Under the pieces are notes generated by a model. It did no database searches and was not told the origin of the DNA. It was given only the letters and a program-made list of their open reading frames with translations. The position numbers were made by a program, and so were the translations under genes. From a virus, in IMG/VR virus record IMGVR_UViG_3300044638_000616, positions 1 to 26,586 of that record: a DNA stretch of 26,586 bases, one strand, 5' to 3'. This document shows positions 3,119-11,106 of this stretch, in pieces; positions within the stretch are counted from its first letter, which is position 1; the number at the start of each line of letters is the position of its first letter.

Positions 3119-3643
3119 TTATATTAATTCAAATTCTTCGTTTAAAAAGTCGGTATAATCATCGCCTACCGATTGACGTATTTTTTCTTTACAAGATTTT
3201 ATAGTTAGGAAAATAGACTTTAAACTGATTCCTGTTTCATCTGCTATTTGACGCATTGGTTTTCTTTCGTCTTTGTATATCTTCCACAACTTTTGGTCGT
3301 ACCAATTCCAACCTTTAATCTCCCATTCTATTCTCTCATAGATTCTCTCCAATGATTCGTGTTTTGCTATGACTGGTTCTTCATAAGATAAATCATAAAC
3401 ATCGTTTAAATCTAACCTATCCATCTTCTGCTTTCGGATGTGGTCAATGTAAACACTTCGCAACGTCAACCACATATGCCCTCTATTAATATCATCCGTT
3501 ACTATCTTGTCTATATGATTTAAACGTAATATGCGGAGGTATGTTTCCTGTACGATGTCTTCAGCAAGGAACTCGTCACCAAATGTGCGGACTACTGATA
3601 GCCATTCTTTGTGGTGTTTTGCTAATGTAGTAATTTTGTCCAT
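3119..3643 (-). CDS. Phage-encoded sigma-70/ECF-like sigma factor
   Basis: Probably binds the host RNA polymerase core and redirects it to phage promoters. The 174-residue protein has an ECF-like layout. A region-2-like segment EFLAEDIVQETYLRILR (about 24-40) is followed by MWLTLRSVYIDHIRKQKMDR, which resembles regions 2.3-2.4. After a linker, a region-4-like HTH reads [28 protein letters not shown] (about 130-157). Its length fits ECF sigmas. It is the first gene after a strong terminator (3698-3723) and is preceded by a near-consensus Bacteroidetes promoter (TTG-N19-TATATTTG), so it seems to start its own transcript leading into the terminase and late genes. That supports a switch role, which remains inference. 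It could instead be a general phage HTH regulator. Confidence 0.75.
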   Translation of the reverse strand: MDKITTLAKHHKEWLSVVRTFGDEFLAEDIVQETYLRILRLNHIDKIVTDDINRGHMWLTLRSVYIDHIRKQKMDRLDLNDVYDLSYEEPVIAKHESLERIYERIEWEIKGWNWYDQKLWKIYKDERKPMRQIADETGISLKSIFLTIKSCKEKIRQSVGDDYTDFLNEEFELI

Positions 3644-4267: not shown

Positions 4268-4485
4268 AAGTTTAAATTATCTTCGTTTATTAATTCACGG
4301 AGTTTATCTCTCCAATAGTCAGTTACTTCCATTTCTGCTTCAGTTGCCTCTCGGTTTTTAATATATCCGTGTTTAACTACCGAGCGCATTTCTTGGTCAA
4401 GCTCCCACATTGCGTTCTTCCATTTCCATCCATCGAGTGCATCTTGTAGTTCTTCGTGGTCGTCAAAGTGTAGTATTGCTTTCAT
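4264..4485 (-). CDS. Conserved small phage protein, 73 aa
   Basis: A 73-residue acidic, helical protein beginning MKAILHFDDHEELQDALDGW. It contains the segment MWELDQEMRSVVKHGYIKNREATEAE. I recognise the arrangement (MKAIL-F-...-W-LD-E-R...KHG) as a frequent unannotated early protein of Bacteroidetes phages. Both ends overlap neighbours as ATGA, indicating translational coupling. Function unknown; there is no catalytic motif. Confidence 0.7.
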   Translation of the reverse strand: MKAILHFDDHEELQDALDGWKWKNAMWELDQEMRSVVKHGYIKNREATEAEMEVTDYWRDKLRELINEDNLNL

Positions 4486-6474: not shown

Positions 6475-6973
6475 TCTTTTTTTTATATTTTTTTATCAAT
6501 TCTTTTAGTTCGTCAACTGACCATCTCTTTTGTAAATGCGCTATACCTTGTAATTCAATCAATTTTTCCGCCCCTATTCGTTTTTCTATACCAATTTGAT
6601 AGTTTAGTAGGTTTCCGCTTAAATAAGTGTTGCAATGCTCGCATTGTAAGTGGCAGTTGTCTTCGTCAAACCTAACATTTGAGTGACCTCCTTGAGAGTA
6701 GTAGTGTCCGCAGTTTTTTTTGAGAGGTGGCTTGTCGCAACTTATGCAGTTCAATCCTTTGTCACGCTCTCTTATATACTTATTGAAGACTACCTGTGCT
6801 TCTTTTAACCAATCTGATGTTGTCTTTAGGTTATCTTTCATTCGTGTTTTAGTCTGCTTCCATTGCTTCTCTTTGGCTTCGGATACAAAAGCACGGACAC
6901 ACTCGTCTTTCAAGCAGTATTTATGATTGAAGCGGATAGGTTCAAACTTATCCTTGCAGTTCTTGCATCTCAT
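6458..6973 (-). CDS. NinG/Rap-like recombination protein
   Basis: Resembles lambda NinG (Rap), a structure-specific DNA-binding recombination protein or endonuclease. The 171-residue protein has an N-terminal CxxC plus C--C cluster (C3, C6, C20, C25; MRCKNCKDKF). A central region RERDKGLNCISCDKPPLKKN is followed by CGHYYSQGGHSNVRFDEDNC and CEHCNTYLSG, which looks like a zinc-supported HNH-type core. The Lys-rich C-terminal helix (ELIKKYKKKIAEL) fits DNA binding. It overlaps the ABC/GNAT gene stop as ATGA and precedes the recombination operon. The gene is visibly A/T-richer than the tail genes. Confidence 0.8.
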   Translation of the reverse strand: MRCKNCKDKFEPIRFNHKYCLKDECVRAFVSEAKEKQWKQTKTRMKDNLKTTSDWLKEAQVVFNKYIRERDKGLNCISCDKPPLKKNCGHYYSQGGHSNVRFDEDNCHLQCEHCNTYLSGNLLNYQIGIEKRIGAEKLIELQGIAHLQKRWSVDELKELIKKYKKKIAELK

Positions 6974-8136
6974 ATAAATAATTTTAATTGATTTTCATTC
7001 ATTTTATTTTCACGCATTTTATCTATTGGAAACATCAAATCTTCATATCCAATTATTGTTTTTCCAACATACTTGTGGCAATATGAAAACCTTTCTAATC
7101 TTTTTTTATATCCTTTTTCTTTTGCATATTTAACATCAATTCGTTTTTTCATATTATGTGAAGTGCCAATCCAATTATCATTATTATTGAAGTATTCTCC
7201 TAAAGCAGGATTCACTGTTTTTATATATAAATCATTATTATTATTTAAAAAAATTCCACCTATAAAATTACATATTTTAGAGCCTAAACCTAAACCTTGA
7301 TAATCTGGAGAAACAACTATTCTTGATATTGATACGCCATTAGGGTTATTATTTCTTGGTGTATTTAATACACAACATATTGCAATTGGATGATTGTTAA
7401 ATTCAAACAAAAAACATTTTGCCGATTTATTTAAGTCTTCCGTTAAATAATGATGTTTTTTAAAGAAGTTCCAAGTTTTAGGTTCGACTCTACTAACTTG
7501 TAATTCGATTTTTGGTCTTCCGTGCCTTCGATAGTCACACCTTTCGAGTGCGCCTCCTTTTTGCGGTGAACAAGTCCAATCTGGCATTAACCACTCTAAT
7601 ATGTCATAATGACAAGATGCTAAAATAATTTTTTTGTTTACTCGTCTGATATATTTTTGTAATGCAAAACTCATTGATTTAGCCACATCTCTATCAACTA
7701 CAGATGTGTATTCATCAACTAAAATAACTTCTCCATCTTTAGATGATGCAACTAAATATGCTAATGTTGCCCTATACTTTTCTCCATTGCTTAAAGTATG
7801 AAAAGGTCTTAACCAAGTTGGAATAGATGATAAACCCATTGATGTTAATACCAATGATGCGTCTTTAGGTTCTAACCAATCAAAATTACTAATCAAAGGT
7901 TTATCTATATCAAATTTGACATTTTTAAACTGACCAAGTGATTTTAAAATTGTTGTTTTTCCACTTCCGCTACTACCTAAAACTACACCTATATTCCATT
8001 CAAAATAATTTATTTTACTTATGTCATATAATATACTTACTGATGTTTCATTTCTATTTTGAATTTCAAAAGTATCGTATACATATTCTGTGTATTTATC
8101 ATTGAGTATTTTTGATTTTAACAAAATTTTTTTCAT
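6970..8136 (-). CDS. ABC-type ATPase fused to a GNAT acetyltransferase-like domain
   Basis: A 388-residue two-domain protein. The N-terminal ABC ATPase has Walker A GSSGSGKT (54-61), signature LSNGE (115-119), Walker B VILVDE (137-142), the segment YTSVVDRDVAKS (143-154) and an H-loop in ASCHYD (His176). There is no membrane segment, so it is not a transporter by itself. The C-terminal part contains FFKKHHYLTEDL (224-235) and the GNAT acyl-CoA-binding motif RIVVSPDYQGLGLGS (272-286). The same domain pair with WLRPFH-LSNGE is known to me from mobile elements and phages of other phyla. The GNAT fold includes phage Mu Mom, a DNA-modifying enzyme, so a base-modification or anti-restriction role is a reasonable hypothesis, not a demonstration. 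It is much richer in A/T than its neighbours, suggesting recent acquisition. It overlaps ninG by ATGA. Confidence 0.82.
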   Translation of the reverse strand: MKKILLKSKILNDKYTEYVYDTFEIQNRNETSVSILYDISKINYFEWNIGVVLGSSGSGKTTILKSLGQFKNVKFDIDKPLISNFDWLEPKDASLVLTSMGLSSIPTWLRPFHTLSNGEKYRATLAYLVASSKDGEVILVDEYTSVVDRDVAKSMSFALQKYIRRVNKKIILASCHYDILEWLMPDWTCSPQKGGALERCDYRRHGRPKIELQVSRVEPKTWNFFKKHHYLTEDLNKSAKCFLFEFNNHPIAICCVLNTPRNNNPNGVSISRIVVSPDYQGLGLGSKICNFIGGIFLNNNNDLYIKTVNPALGEYFNNNDNWIGTSHNMKKRIDVKYAKEKGYKKRLERFSYCHKYVGKTIIGYEDLMFPIDKMRENKMNENQLKLFI

Positions 8137-8805: not shown

Positions 8806-9750
8806 TTAAAAAGGGTTTTGGTTTGCTAATCTACGGAGTTTATCCGATGTACTTTCTATTTGTCCGTCTTTTGGTATGACCATCTGCTTCTCGTTTGGTC
8901 GGAATGGCGCTAAAGGATCTACTCCGTTTATTTGGAATCCGATACCTGAATTGAAATCACATATCACAGGAAAATCCATCTCCGTATGTTTACCTCCAGT
9001 CTCCATATCCTTGACCTTTTCTACTTGAATCCAAGTTTTGTACTTATGTTCGGGATGTTTAATCAATCGGTGAATGACTAACATATCATCGCAGCGGTTA
9101 GTAAAGCTCTTACCGCCTTCAATATGGTCTTTTAAAGGTGCTTTTAAATGCCCTTTTAACTCTCCTTCTGCATACAAGTTACCTCCTCTACCTGATTCGG
9201 AGTTAGGGTGCGTGTTTATGTAGATTGTCATTCCGTTTTGATTCACAAACTGACGTGCCTTATTCATAAATTCGTAGTTACCTGAAAAGCTCATCTCACG
9301 GTCTAAACCTGTAAATGGGTCTATAAGTCCTACATTAGCACCGCTCTTCTTAAATAGCTCAAGTATCTCATCAGGTTTGTACAATTTCGAGTTGTCTATG
9401 AACGTAAAGAACTGCTCCAAGTACGCAAGATCACCGCTGATTTGATTGTGGCTTAATTTACTGAAGTGCTTGCCTCGGTACATTTGAATCATATCTCGCA
9501 GGATTTGACCTTTCTGATTCTCGCCTGACCAAATGCAGAACGTTAGTCCGTGTTTAAGTGCAAGCGTAATAAAGTACCAGTTAATCCAATACGTCTTACC
9601 AACGTTGTCGTGTCCTAAAATGATGTTTAGTTGTTTAGGCTTGAATTTTAAATGCTCATCCAAAAAGCAGTCAAGTCCGAGTCCTTGTTTGATTTTACCA
9701 TCTCTAACATCGAGTAGGTATTGTAGTGAGTCTCCTTGTTTTAGTAGCAT
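8806..9750 (-). CDS. RecA-fold replicative helicase (DnaB-like C-terminal domain)
   Basis: Probably the phage replicative helicase or a related ssDNA-translocating ATPase. The 314-residue protein consists of a RecA-like core: Walker A GHDNVGKT (46-53), a Walker B strand NVGLIDPFTGLD (139-150), and a conserved segment MTIYINTHPNSESGRGG with the sensor-like THP. A later region, VHIGG-like DHIEGGKSFTNRCDDMLVIH, matches the DnaB/gp4 helicase surface in which G-K-S is followed by D--L-I-R. There is no N-terminal primase or DnaB N-domain, so it is a minimal helicase. It directly follows a DnaD-like gene, a common helicase/loader pair. Confidence 0.75.
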   Translation of the reverse strand: MLLKQGDSLQYLLDVRDGKIKQGLGLDCFLDEHLKFKPKQLNIILGHDNVGKTYWINWYFITLALKHGLTFCIWSGENQKGQILRDMIQMYRGKHFSKLSHNQISGDLAYLEQFFTFIDNSKLYKPDEILELFKKSGANVGLIDPFTGLDREMSFSGNYEFMNKARQFVNQNGMTIYINTHPNSESGRGGNLYAEGELKGHLKAPLKDHIEGGKSFTNRCDDMLVIHRLIKHPEHKYKTWIQVEKVKDMETGGKHTEMDFPVICDFNSGIGFQINGVDPLAPFRPNEKQMVIPKDGQIESTSDKLRRLANQNPF

Positions 9751-10409
9751 CAGTTATTTTTTAGTGCGGTTAATAATCTATCGTTTTCCTTTTCAAGCCA
9801 ATTAGCGTTAAATCCTTTCCACGAACGCTCTACGCATTTTCTTAAAATATGGTTACGATCTCCTCCGTGTTTTTGTACTTGGCTCATAAATGAGTTGAAC
9901 GCAGTTTCAGTATTTACGGCTTTCAATTGTTTACGAACTTCCATCCATTCAAGAGACAACTTTTCGTCAAATCCGTTTTCAAGTAGCGAAGCTAAAAAGC
10001 TATATTTATTATTCTTTTCATTCTTTTCATTCTTGTTTGTTGTTAGTTGTTTGTTAGTCGCTTGTTGATTGTTTGTTAGTGGCTTGTTAGTCTCATCGTT
10101 TTCATCTTGGTAACATTCATATTTTGAGATAGTTACGATAGTAAATTGGCTTGTTGATTTTACTTCAATTTCGTTAGTCTTTTCCAACTTTTTTAAAATG
10201 GTTCTAATCGTCTGAATTGATATACCAGTAGCGTTAGAAATGTTACCTAAAGACGAAATGAACTGACCTCTTTTTACTTCAATGCCTTGCCATTTACCAT
10301 CCTTGTGGTTAGCTTTTAAAAGCATATAAATAAACAAGTGTACTGCCTCCGATTTATTGAACCATTCCCACTCTAAAAACTTGCGATGTATTTTAATCCA
10401 TCCGATCAT
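9750..10409 (-). CDS. DnaD-like replisome organiser / helicase loader
   Basis: A 219-residue protein with an N-terminal winged-helix region beginning MIGWIKIHRKFLEWEWFNKS, the typical opening of phage DnaD/DnaB-like initiation proteins. It continues through QFISSLGNISNATGISIQTI and IRTILKKLEKTNEIE (about 49-80). A low-complexity Asn/Thr/Lys linker (about 105-132; short TNN/TNK/KNEKNE repeats) connects to a C-terminal domain with AFNSFMSQVQKHGG and RSWKGFNANWLEKEN, like the DnaD C-terminal YxxxIxxxW-type motif. It lies immediately before the helicase gene. It would load that helicase at the origin. The linker is encoded by repeated tTTGTTAGT-like units, a likely site of slippage. Confidence 0.72.
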   Translation of the reverse strand: MIGWIKIHRKFLEWEWFNKSEAVHLFIYMLLKANHKDGKWQGIEVKRGQFISSLGNISNATGISIQTIRTILKKLEKTNEIEVKSTSQFTIVTISKYECYQDENDETNKPLTNNQQATNKQLTTNKNEKNEKNNKYSFLASLLENGFDEKLSLEWMEVRKQLKAVNTETAFNSFMSQVQKHGGDRNHILRKCVERSWKGFNANWLEKENDRLLTALKNN

Positions 10410-10563
10410 AAAAATATTTTAAAATTTTAATCAAGTCTGCAACCTCTTCTTTTTCAAATGTTAAATTTGAATTTGGTTTTACAATTAACTTACCAGTCAT
10501 TTCTCCAATGTAGATAGTAAATTCATCTTCATTTAATGTTACAAAAGAATCTTTTTCAGTCAT
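10393..10563 (-). CDS. Small acidic protein, 56 aa
   Basis: The ATG at 10563 gives a 56-residue product starting MTEKDSFVTLNEDEFTIYIG. A longer frame to 10602 would begin inside the terminator hairpin of the upstream RNA and is therefore rejected. Alternating hydrophobic residues (FTIYIGEMTGKLIVKPN) suggest beta strands, with a C-terminal helix VADLIKILKYFYDRM. No family recognised. As the first gene downstream of the structured RNA, it would be expressed only by read-through of that terminator or from another promoter. Confidence 0.6.
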   Translation of the reverse strand: MTEKDSFVTLNEDEFTIYIGEMTGKLIVKPNSNLTFEKEEVADLIKILKYFYDRMD

Positions 10564-10582
10564 AATATAATTTTTAGTCAAT

Positions 10583-10632
10583 AAAAAACCCCTGCATCTC
10601 ATCGCGGCTGGACTTGCGAATCAATACAAGGG
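10583..10632 (-). terminator. Long terminator hairpin of the ncRNA
   Basis: Stem of 14 pairs with a 3x3 internal loop (10632-10616 with 10605-10589), 10-nt loop, then six T on the minus strand (10588-10583). The stem is longer than usual for an intrinsic terminator, and the loop is complementary to an upstream loop, which could modulate termination. Confidence 0.8.
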
Positions 10633-10673
10633 TCAATAATACCTTAAGAGTTTATGGTGTCCAGCCAACTCGT
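10583..10673 (-). ncRNA. Candidate structured phage RNA with kissing loops and its own promoter and terminator
   Basis: Between two genes the minus strand holds a promoter -7 (10684-10677), a predicted 5' end near 10673, and a U6 tract at 10588-10583. Hairpin 1 is GAGUU (10671-10667) with AACUC (10652-10648). Its 14-nt loop carries GGCUGGAC (10666-10659). Hairpin 2 pairs 10632-10616 with 10589-10605: 10 bp, a 3x3 internal loop with tandem G.A/A.G opposition, then 4 bp, closed by a 10-nt loop AAGUCCAGCC (10615-10606). GUCCAGCC of this loop is perfectly complementary, 8 Watson-Crick pairs, to GGCUGGAC of loop 1. Hairpin 2 is followed by UUUUUU, so it doubles as the terminator. Such long-range complementarity is unlikely by chance. 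It could be an independent small RNA, an attenuator for the genes downstream, or an RNA that dimerises by loop-loop contacts. I do not recognise an Rfam family. Confidence 0.75.
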
Positions 10674-10676
10674 CTA

Positions 10677-10709
10677 CAAATATAACGTATAACTATCAAA
10701 AAAGTTGCA
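10677..10709 (-). promoter_or_regulatory. Promoter of the ncRNA
   Basis: The minus strand has TATATTTG (10684-10677), identical to the -7 octamer of the sigma-like gene and recombination operon promoters. Upstream is TGCAACTTTTTTGAT (10709-10695), matching the box at the sigma-gene promoter with one mismatch, though 3 nt closer to the -7. A clear TTG at 19 nt is missing, so an activator or the phage sigma factor may be needed. Confidence 0.6.
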
Positions 10710-10713
10710 TCAG

Positions 10714-11106
10714 CTATAAATTTTTTTCGTATTTACCTAATTTTATGTGTCGCTGAATCTTCTTAAACTGCGTGTACGTTTTTGCCTTTAGAACGTCTTT
10801 AACCAAGTCAGGTGAATCATCGTAGTAAGGAAGAGTTGCACCGTATAAGACCTCGTCTATTCGCCTTGTAGCTATCTTGTAGTCTTCGTATCCGAACCTG
10901 TGAAGGTCTTCGTGTTGACGTAGTCCGTGCAGGATGGTAGCGTGATGTTTACCACCAAACATATTTCCTATTTCGGTTAAGGTGTAGTCAATTTTGCGCA
11001 GTTCGTTGTAAAGGTAGTACCTGCGATATATGTAATCTCTACTTCGGTTCTTTGATTTTAAGCCGTATTCATTAATCAGGCTTTCTATAATTTCTACTTT
11101 CGTCAT
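10714..11106 (-). CDS. DnaA domain IV-like DNA-binding protein
   Basis: A 130-residue protein whose middle (about 28-63) matches the C-terminal DNA-binding domain of the initiator DnaA: NELRKIDYTLTEIGNMFGGK followed by HHATILHGLRQ (GGKHHATILHG at 51-61; DnaA signature is GG-DHTTVLHA). The AAA+ domain of DnaA is absent, so it binds DNA but cannot use ATP. The C-terminus is a separate basic region (FKKIQRHIKLGKYEKN). Phages are known to carry such isolated domains as origin-binding or replication-interfering proteins. Its place ahead of DnaD-like and helicase genes supports an origin-recognition role; interference with host initiation is an alternative. Confidence 0.75.
   Translation of the reverse strand: MTKVEIIESLINEYGLKSKNRSRDYIYRRYYLYNELRKIDYTLTEIGNMFGGKHHATILHGLRQHEDLHRFGYEDYKIATRRIDEVLYGATLPYYDDSPDLVKDVLKAKTYTQFKKIQRHIKLGKYEKNL

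Follow-up and report, generated by a model that had tools for sequence, protein, structure and literature searches.

A compact RNA with two kissing hairpins, its own promoter and an intrinsic terminator that supplies one half of the kiss is predicted on the minus strand of the window (the whole stretch of viral DNA analysed here, 26,586 nucleotides), where it would span from 10672 to the U tract at 10588-10583. Judged by sequence, it is a member of an undescribed and widespread RNA family of uncultured phages. We lean towards reading it as a replication-control leader that limits the phage's own replication initiator, through pairing of the terminator loop (anti-S) with the sequence presented by the first hairpin (S). 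The parts of the RNA and of the region around it are as follows.

10704..10708, minus strand: conserved GCAAC at -36 to -32, in place of the usual -33 element TTTG (126 relatives)
10677..10684, minus strand: -7 box TATATTTG, a promoter of the sigma-ABfr type of Bacteroidota (TAHHTTTG), from the sequence and the consensus in PMC6847099
10672, minus strand: predicted transcription start, one base 5' of hairpin 1, by the G-at-minus-5 rule (PMC6847099)
10648..10671, minus strand: hairpin 1, with stem GAGUU/AACUC (10671-10667 paired with 10652-10648) and a loop of 14 nt
10659..10666, minus strand: loop-1 side of the kiss, GGCUGGAC, the target-like sequence S, which pairs with 10613-10606
10633..10647, minus strand: linker UUAAGGUAUUAUUGA between the hairpins, with UUAUU conserved in the alignment
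10589..10632, minus strand: hairpin 2, the intrinsic terminator hairpin (10632-10616 paired with 10605-10589)
10606..10613, minus strand: loop-2 side of the kiss, GUCCAGCC, the antisense side anti-S, exactly complementary to loop 1 over 8 nt
10583..10588, minus strand: terminator U6 tract
10564..10582, minus strand: A/T-rich leader of 19 nt that separates the U tract from the next start codon

Mapped promoters of Flavobacterium johnsoniae have the form TAHHTTTG with its G at -5 (PMC6847099), and because TATATTTG fits this form the start is predicted at 10672. The box at -12 to -5 is almost unchanged across 126 relatives, and position +2 is a G in 90% of them. Most copies carry GCAAC rather than the -33 TTTG (conservation G46 C56 A80 A69 C57 percent in the same 126 relatives), and the element at 10708-10704 could be an activator site. 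Hairpin 2 consists of an outer stem of 10 bp (one U.G), an internal loop of tandem G.A plus U.U (10622-10620/10601-10599) and an inner stem of 4 bp; its stem is stable and G+C-rich and is followed directly by the U tract, as in an intrinsic terminator, and the U tract is kept in relatives. No TAHHTTTG box lies within the leader at 10564..10582. Both hairpins form in a minimum-free-energy fold computed without pseudoknots (-28.3 kcal/mol, z -2.7), and a descriptor made up of the promoter, a 5-bp hairpin 1, an 8-nt loop-loop match and the terminator finds this site alone in the window and nothing in 60 dinucleotide shuffles. The octamer, the hairpins, the loops and the U6 tract all lie where the first-pass annotation of this DNA had placed them.

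Relatives were fetched from IMG/VR by way of the neighbouring proteins, then with a profile of the RNA, and then by pattern scans; the profile identifies 130 distinct copies in IMG/VR, and the scans added further ones. Among 21 aligned relatives 99.8% of the pair cells are kept and 19 of the 26 pairs change on both sides. The stem of hairpin 1 is 99% paired, with both sides changed in three of its five pairs, the helices of hairpin 2 are 100% paired (10 of the 13 pairs counted co-vary), and so is the kissing helix, in which six of the eight pairs co-vary. Covariation scores 0.765, compared with 0.25 in shuffled and at most about 0.1 in slid versions, and the kiss occurs in more than 20 different alleles, nearly all of them perfectly complementary. 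Co-variation is thus unusually clear, tertiary contact included. The first-pass annotation had held that such a layout would hardly arise by chance and had proposed a search of related phages, with a covariance model, for compensatory changes; both the shuffles and the retained pairs bear out the former, and the changes are present in both stems and in the kiss. Its description of a small RNA of the phage, or a leader, that has a promoter of its own and a terminator carrying one side of the kiss, likewise stands as a reading of the sequence.

Two subtypes can be distinguished. Type A, to which the window's RNA belongs, retains the tandem G.A in the internal loop of the terminator hairpin; in its sister subtype, type B, the kiss is 6-7 bp long and occupies the whole loop, and the internal loop is of the form AGUA/GAA, which we take to resemble the sarcin-ricin (loop E) motif. 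The linker is alike in type A and in most of type B. Rfam 15 gives no match at the gathering score for the window or for four relatives, in agreement with the earlier remark that no described family has this layout, and at E up to 5 it gives a single chance snoRNA match and nothing credible. A DNA search of GenBank phages and plasmids returns short chance matches at most and no isolated phage with the RNA; Nonlabens phage P12024L, the nearest capsid relative having a genome, is without it. A scan of GTDB genomes with the linker pattern yields 31 stretches, none convincing under the covariance model. A scan for GGCTGGAC...GTCCAGCC gives mostly chance hits, yet it caught true relatives such as L035. 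From the promoter type and the terminase and capsid relatives, the phages concerned appear to be small phages of Bacteroidota type. We note also a distant member (L106, 5129-5043, minus strand) with the kiss GGCUGGAC/GUCCAGCC, which lies inside the structural-gene region of another phage and precedes a zinc-ribbon/HNH-like gene.

The RNA of the window is situated among genes for replication functions:

10714..11106, minus strand: upstream gene, a stand-alone DnaA domain IV (DNA-binding) protein (PF08299, E 4e-9)
10393..10563, minus strand: first downstream gene, an open reading frame for a 56-aa protein
9750..10409, minus strand: DnaD-like helicase loader / replication initiation protein (phrog_2514, E 3e-31)
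8806..9750, minus strand: replicative helicase related to phage primase-helicases (phrog_18375, E 1e-18; phrog_239; weakly the DnaB-like phrog_19)

The RNA follows the gene for DnaA domain IV in 133 of the 133 distinct loci examined, that is, loci with this gene (125 recognised by profile and 8, of type B, by eye) and enough sequence, some of which came from RNA-pattern rather than protein fetches. This stand-alone protein might bind the RNA promoter or a phage origin. On the other side, the RNA of relatives precedes a DnaD-like loader and a helicase; the identity of the first gene 3' of the RNA varies widely and is often not the initiator, and the 56-aa protein of the window has no match in Pfam or PHROGs. 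In most of 132 relatives the first start codon follows the U tract at a distance of 15-23 nt, whatever the gene, and a promoter-like box lies between the two in 9 of the 132. This spacing leaves little room for another promoter, and expression of the replication operon would therefore largely have to cross the terminator.

Several loci depart from the common arrangement. In L398 the RNA lies 3' of ssb instead, with the DnaD-like and helicase genes still downstream. Likely homing endonucleases (HNH and GIY-YIG, judged by sequence) are encoded directly 3' of the RNA in L168, L156, L207 and others, and where such genes stand between RNA and initiator the usual terminator spacing is retained. Type A and type B RNAs occur about 2 kb apart in L377 (1928-2019 and about 4296-4382), and the same pair is found in L347; in L356 the two types are also about 2 kb apart (minus strand, about 1894-1983 and 23-106), the type-A copy preceding a ParB-like/DNA-methyltransferase gene. 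Elsewhere in the window, 6970-8136 (minus strand) encodes an ABC-type ATPase fused to a GNAT acetyltransferase (phrog_11143), and 3119-3643 (minus strand) has a weak match to sigma-70 region 2 and is a possible phage sigma factor.

The evidence for a target comes from type B, in which a second copy of the loop-1 sequence adjoins the start codon of the DnaD-like gene (for example GUUGCAG-AUG, GUGCAGUAAGAUG). An identical six-base copy is present at a downstream start for 48 of 55 distinct type-B RNAs. At the 46 type-B loci having a GCAG site at the initiator start, which are not a count of independent events because the loci are related, loop 2 complements both variable bases in 45, against a shuffle mean of 7.9 and a maximum of 19 in 20,000. 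One protein family occurs with several alleles, each of them matched, so that the match tracks the allele and not the protein family. At five loci (L144, L263, L264, L146 and L251) the initiator lies 1.8 kb from the RNA, with other genes in between, and the copy is still at the initiator start, with no second RNA just 5' of the distant initiator; a match this far away speaks for an RNA that acts in trans, or at least on a start site lying distally in a long mRNA. The sole type-B mismatch, in L529 (about 1036-1077), sets an AGGCAG allele of loop 2 against TTGCAG at the initiator start, and this locus is perhaps a recent recombinant. One type-A allele, CCUUCGAC, has ACUUCGACAAUG at its initiator start. 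In type B the copy of loop 1 at the initiator start changes together with loop 2, and for this reason loop 2 probably serves as antisense to the replication initiator. The bearing on the genes from 10563 onward that had been suggested at the outset is strengthened, both by the spacing from the U tract and by the match of the type-B terminator loop to the initiator start. As the type-B target can be named from sequence, namely the start site of the initiator, a direct test of control by the RNA is possible.

In the mechanism that we infer, transcription would begin at the phage promoter, with hairpin 1 at the start of the transcript, and most transcripts would stop at the U tract, yielding a stable product of about 88-90 nt, and the remainder would continue into the genes for the DnaD-like initiator and the helicase. 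Hairpin 1 would be a built-in copy of the target that keeps anti-S in the kiss. In type B and with one type-A allele, the anti-S loop would pair in trans with the second S touching the initiator start codon and most likely block the entry of ribosomes, the loop sequence serving as a specificity tag. As phage genomes multiply, the RNA would become more abundant and the initiator scarcer, so that replication would be held back by negative feedback. Repression is the presumed sign of the effect; by analogy with IsrK, the same complementarity could activate instead. The window's allele has no second S, and here the pairing of loop 2 with hairpin 1, whether in cis or with a nascent leader in trans, would most likely set the read-through into the operon. 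By a rough geometric estimate the kiss probably closes within one molecule, as stem 1, the kiss and hairpin 2 stacked on one another would make about 30 layers, roughly 84 angstrom, which the 15-nt linker could just span. A pairing of AAGG in the linker with CCUU in the terminator was rejected by inspection, as the linker stays the same when CCUU changes.

A different account, which we rate as possible but somewhat doubtful, makes the RNA a cis-only attenuator, in which kissing within the nascent leader determines how often the polymerase reads through the terminator, and a phage or host factor acting on the kiss or the linker would switch it. The rigid spacing of 15-23 nt irrespective of the gene, the promoter-like box in just 9 of 132 relatives, and the absence of other targets for most type-A alleles are all consistent with such control. 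It leaves unexplained, however, the three-way matching of both loops with the initiator start in type B, including that at 1.8 kb, and inspection of the linker disclosed no antiterminator pairing.

The type-A alleles were searched for targets in their own right. Within its 26.6 kb the window has no target of at least 7 nt for the full kiss of its allele, and neither this allele nor most other type-A alleles have a second S at the examined start codons, imperfect pairing included. Comparisons of own with other alleles, based on 6-mers, 7-mers and duplex energy, revealed no type-A target except xxUUCGAC. At downstream start sites the GGCUGGAC allele seemed to have a slight advantage over the others, a signal that vanished on double centring. 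In four relatives of 29-30 kb with the window's allele, GGCTGGAC is confined to the RNA. A type-A target elsewhere in the phage is possible, since the linear IMG/VR record may lack some kilobases (relatives are up to about 30 kb long). The role in trans first proposed for this RNA has sequence support in type B, and the window's own allele is without a second target. It is unlikely, in our estimation, that the RNA acts in trans on host mRNAs through loop 2 (or loop 1), its location beside replication genes being merely convenient; a promoter and terminator of its own and the lack of such a target in the window would agree with this, but conserved host targets would hardly be expected to go with upwards of 20 alleles at a single locus in closely related phages, and type B already has a phage target.

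We think it very improbable that the RNA, like the pRNA of phi29, dimerises or serves in packaging by loop pairing between molecules. Two complementary loops that co-vary would suit such a function, but the RNA sits in the replication module, away from the terminase, the packaging genes of the phage (a Terminase_3 large subunit, TerL, and a gp3-like small subunit) are ordinary, and by the rough geometric estimate a linker of 15-18 nt is about enough for self-closure; the phi29-like packaging role entertained in the first-pass annotation finds no support, given the locus and the ordinary terminase.

The RNA is exchanged between phages together with its neighbours. In the phages compared, the DnaA-domain protein is 96-100% identical to that of the window and the upstream DNA 87-95%, and in the same phages identity falls to 48-62% over the RNA and to about 40% over the first 700 nt downstream; the RNA and first genes are thus exchanged as a cassette. 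The helicase farther downstream is similar again among close relatives, and one locus holds type A, type A with a target, or type B among them. In L126, a close relative, the downstream sequence is kept (93%) and the kiss is the compensated GGCUCGAC. That the region is a promoter-terminator spacer at a recombination joint, its structure incidental, would suit this mosaic boundary but is almost certainly wrong, being refuted by compensatory changes in four helices, the kiss included.

The exchange of the RNA and first genes may be likened to that of immunity regions, and we suggest, tentatively, that the RNA may be a determinant of incompatibility or superinfection immunity, in which exchangeable kissing-loop alleles would decide which co-infecting genomes can express the initiator. 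If so, related phages would diversify their loops and swap RNA-initiator cassettes in the manner of plasmid antisense incompatibility loops, and loop alleles acting as specificity tags would be the phage counterpart of plasmid incompatibility. We know of no Bacteroidota phage in which phage-phage competition at such a level has been recognised.

In ColE1 RNAI, R1 CopA and the Inc RNA of IncI plasmids, pairing between loops governs a replication initiator or primer and is what defines incompatibility; these antisense copy-number RNAs come from the opposite strand, whereas here both sides are on one strand. The phi29 pRNA is a phage RNA with co-varying interlocking loops, and it differs in locus, size, fold and packaging machinery. 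According to PMC4825925, the leader of the replication operon of phage P4 encodes the CI RNA, whose antisense segment has matching target copies upstream (seqA) and downstream (seqC), and which represses P4's own replication genes. Our RNA likewise occupies the leader of a replication operon, ahead of the DnaD-like loader and helicase, and, in parallel with seqA and seqC on either side of the P4 antisense segment, type B has the order S, anti-S, S; both flanking copies are present in type B and with one type-A allele, and the window has the upstream copy only. As portrayed there, P4 CI is cut from a longer transcript, whereas here there are a dedicated promoter box (-12 to -5) and an intrinsic terminator; the upstream target copy here is presented by a hairpin, which forms a kiss with the antisense loop, unlike P4 CI as described; and P4 uses control by premature termination in a lysogen, whereas here no integrase was recognised among the scanned proteins. 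Phages P1 and P7 make a small RNA, c4, with loops that pair around the ribosome-binding site of one of the phage genes, and the sequence of c4 sets heteroimmunity (PMC12197685). It resembles our RNA in start-site pairing and in specificity of the heteroimmunity type, but its target is an antirepressor gene, its structure and origin differ, and our RNA has no Rfam match. IsrK of prophage Gifsy-1 is, as described in PMC4825925, a short RNA that ends at an intrinsic terminator, with read-through making the downstream mRNA, on whose translation start the short form acts in trans. A terminator so placed that read-through would enter the downstream genes is found here as well, and pairing at the start site is limited to type B; IsrK, however, is enterobacterial and activates an antirepressor operon, and kissing hairpins are not among the features given for it there. 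The RNA described here would work like P4 CI, P1 c4 and IsrK yet is a member of none of these families, because it shares no family model with them, has its own promoter and terminator, and is closed by a kiss between its two loops.
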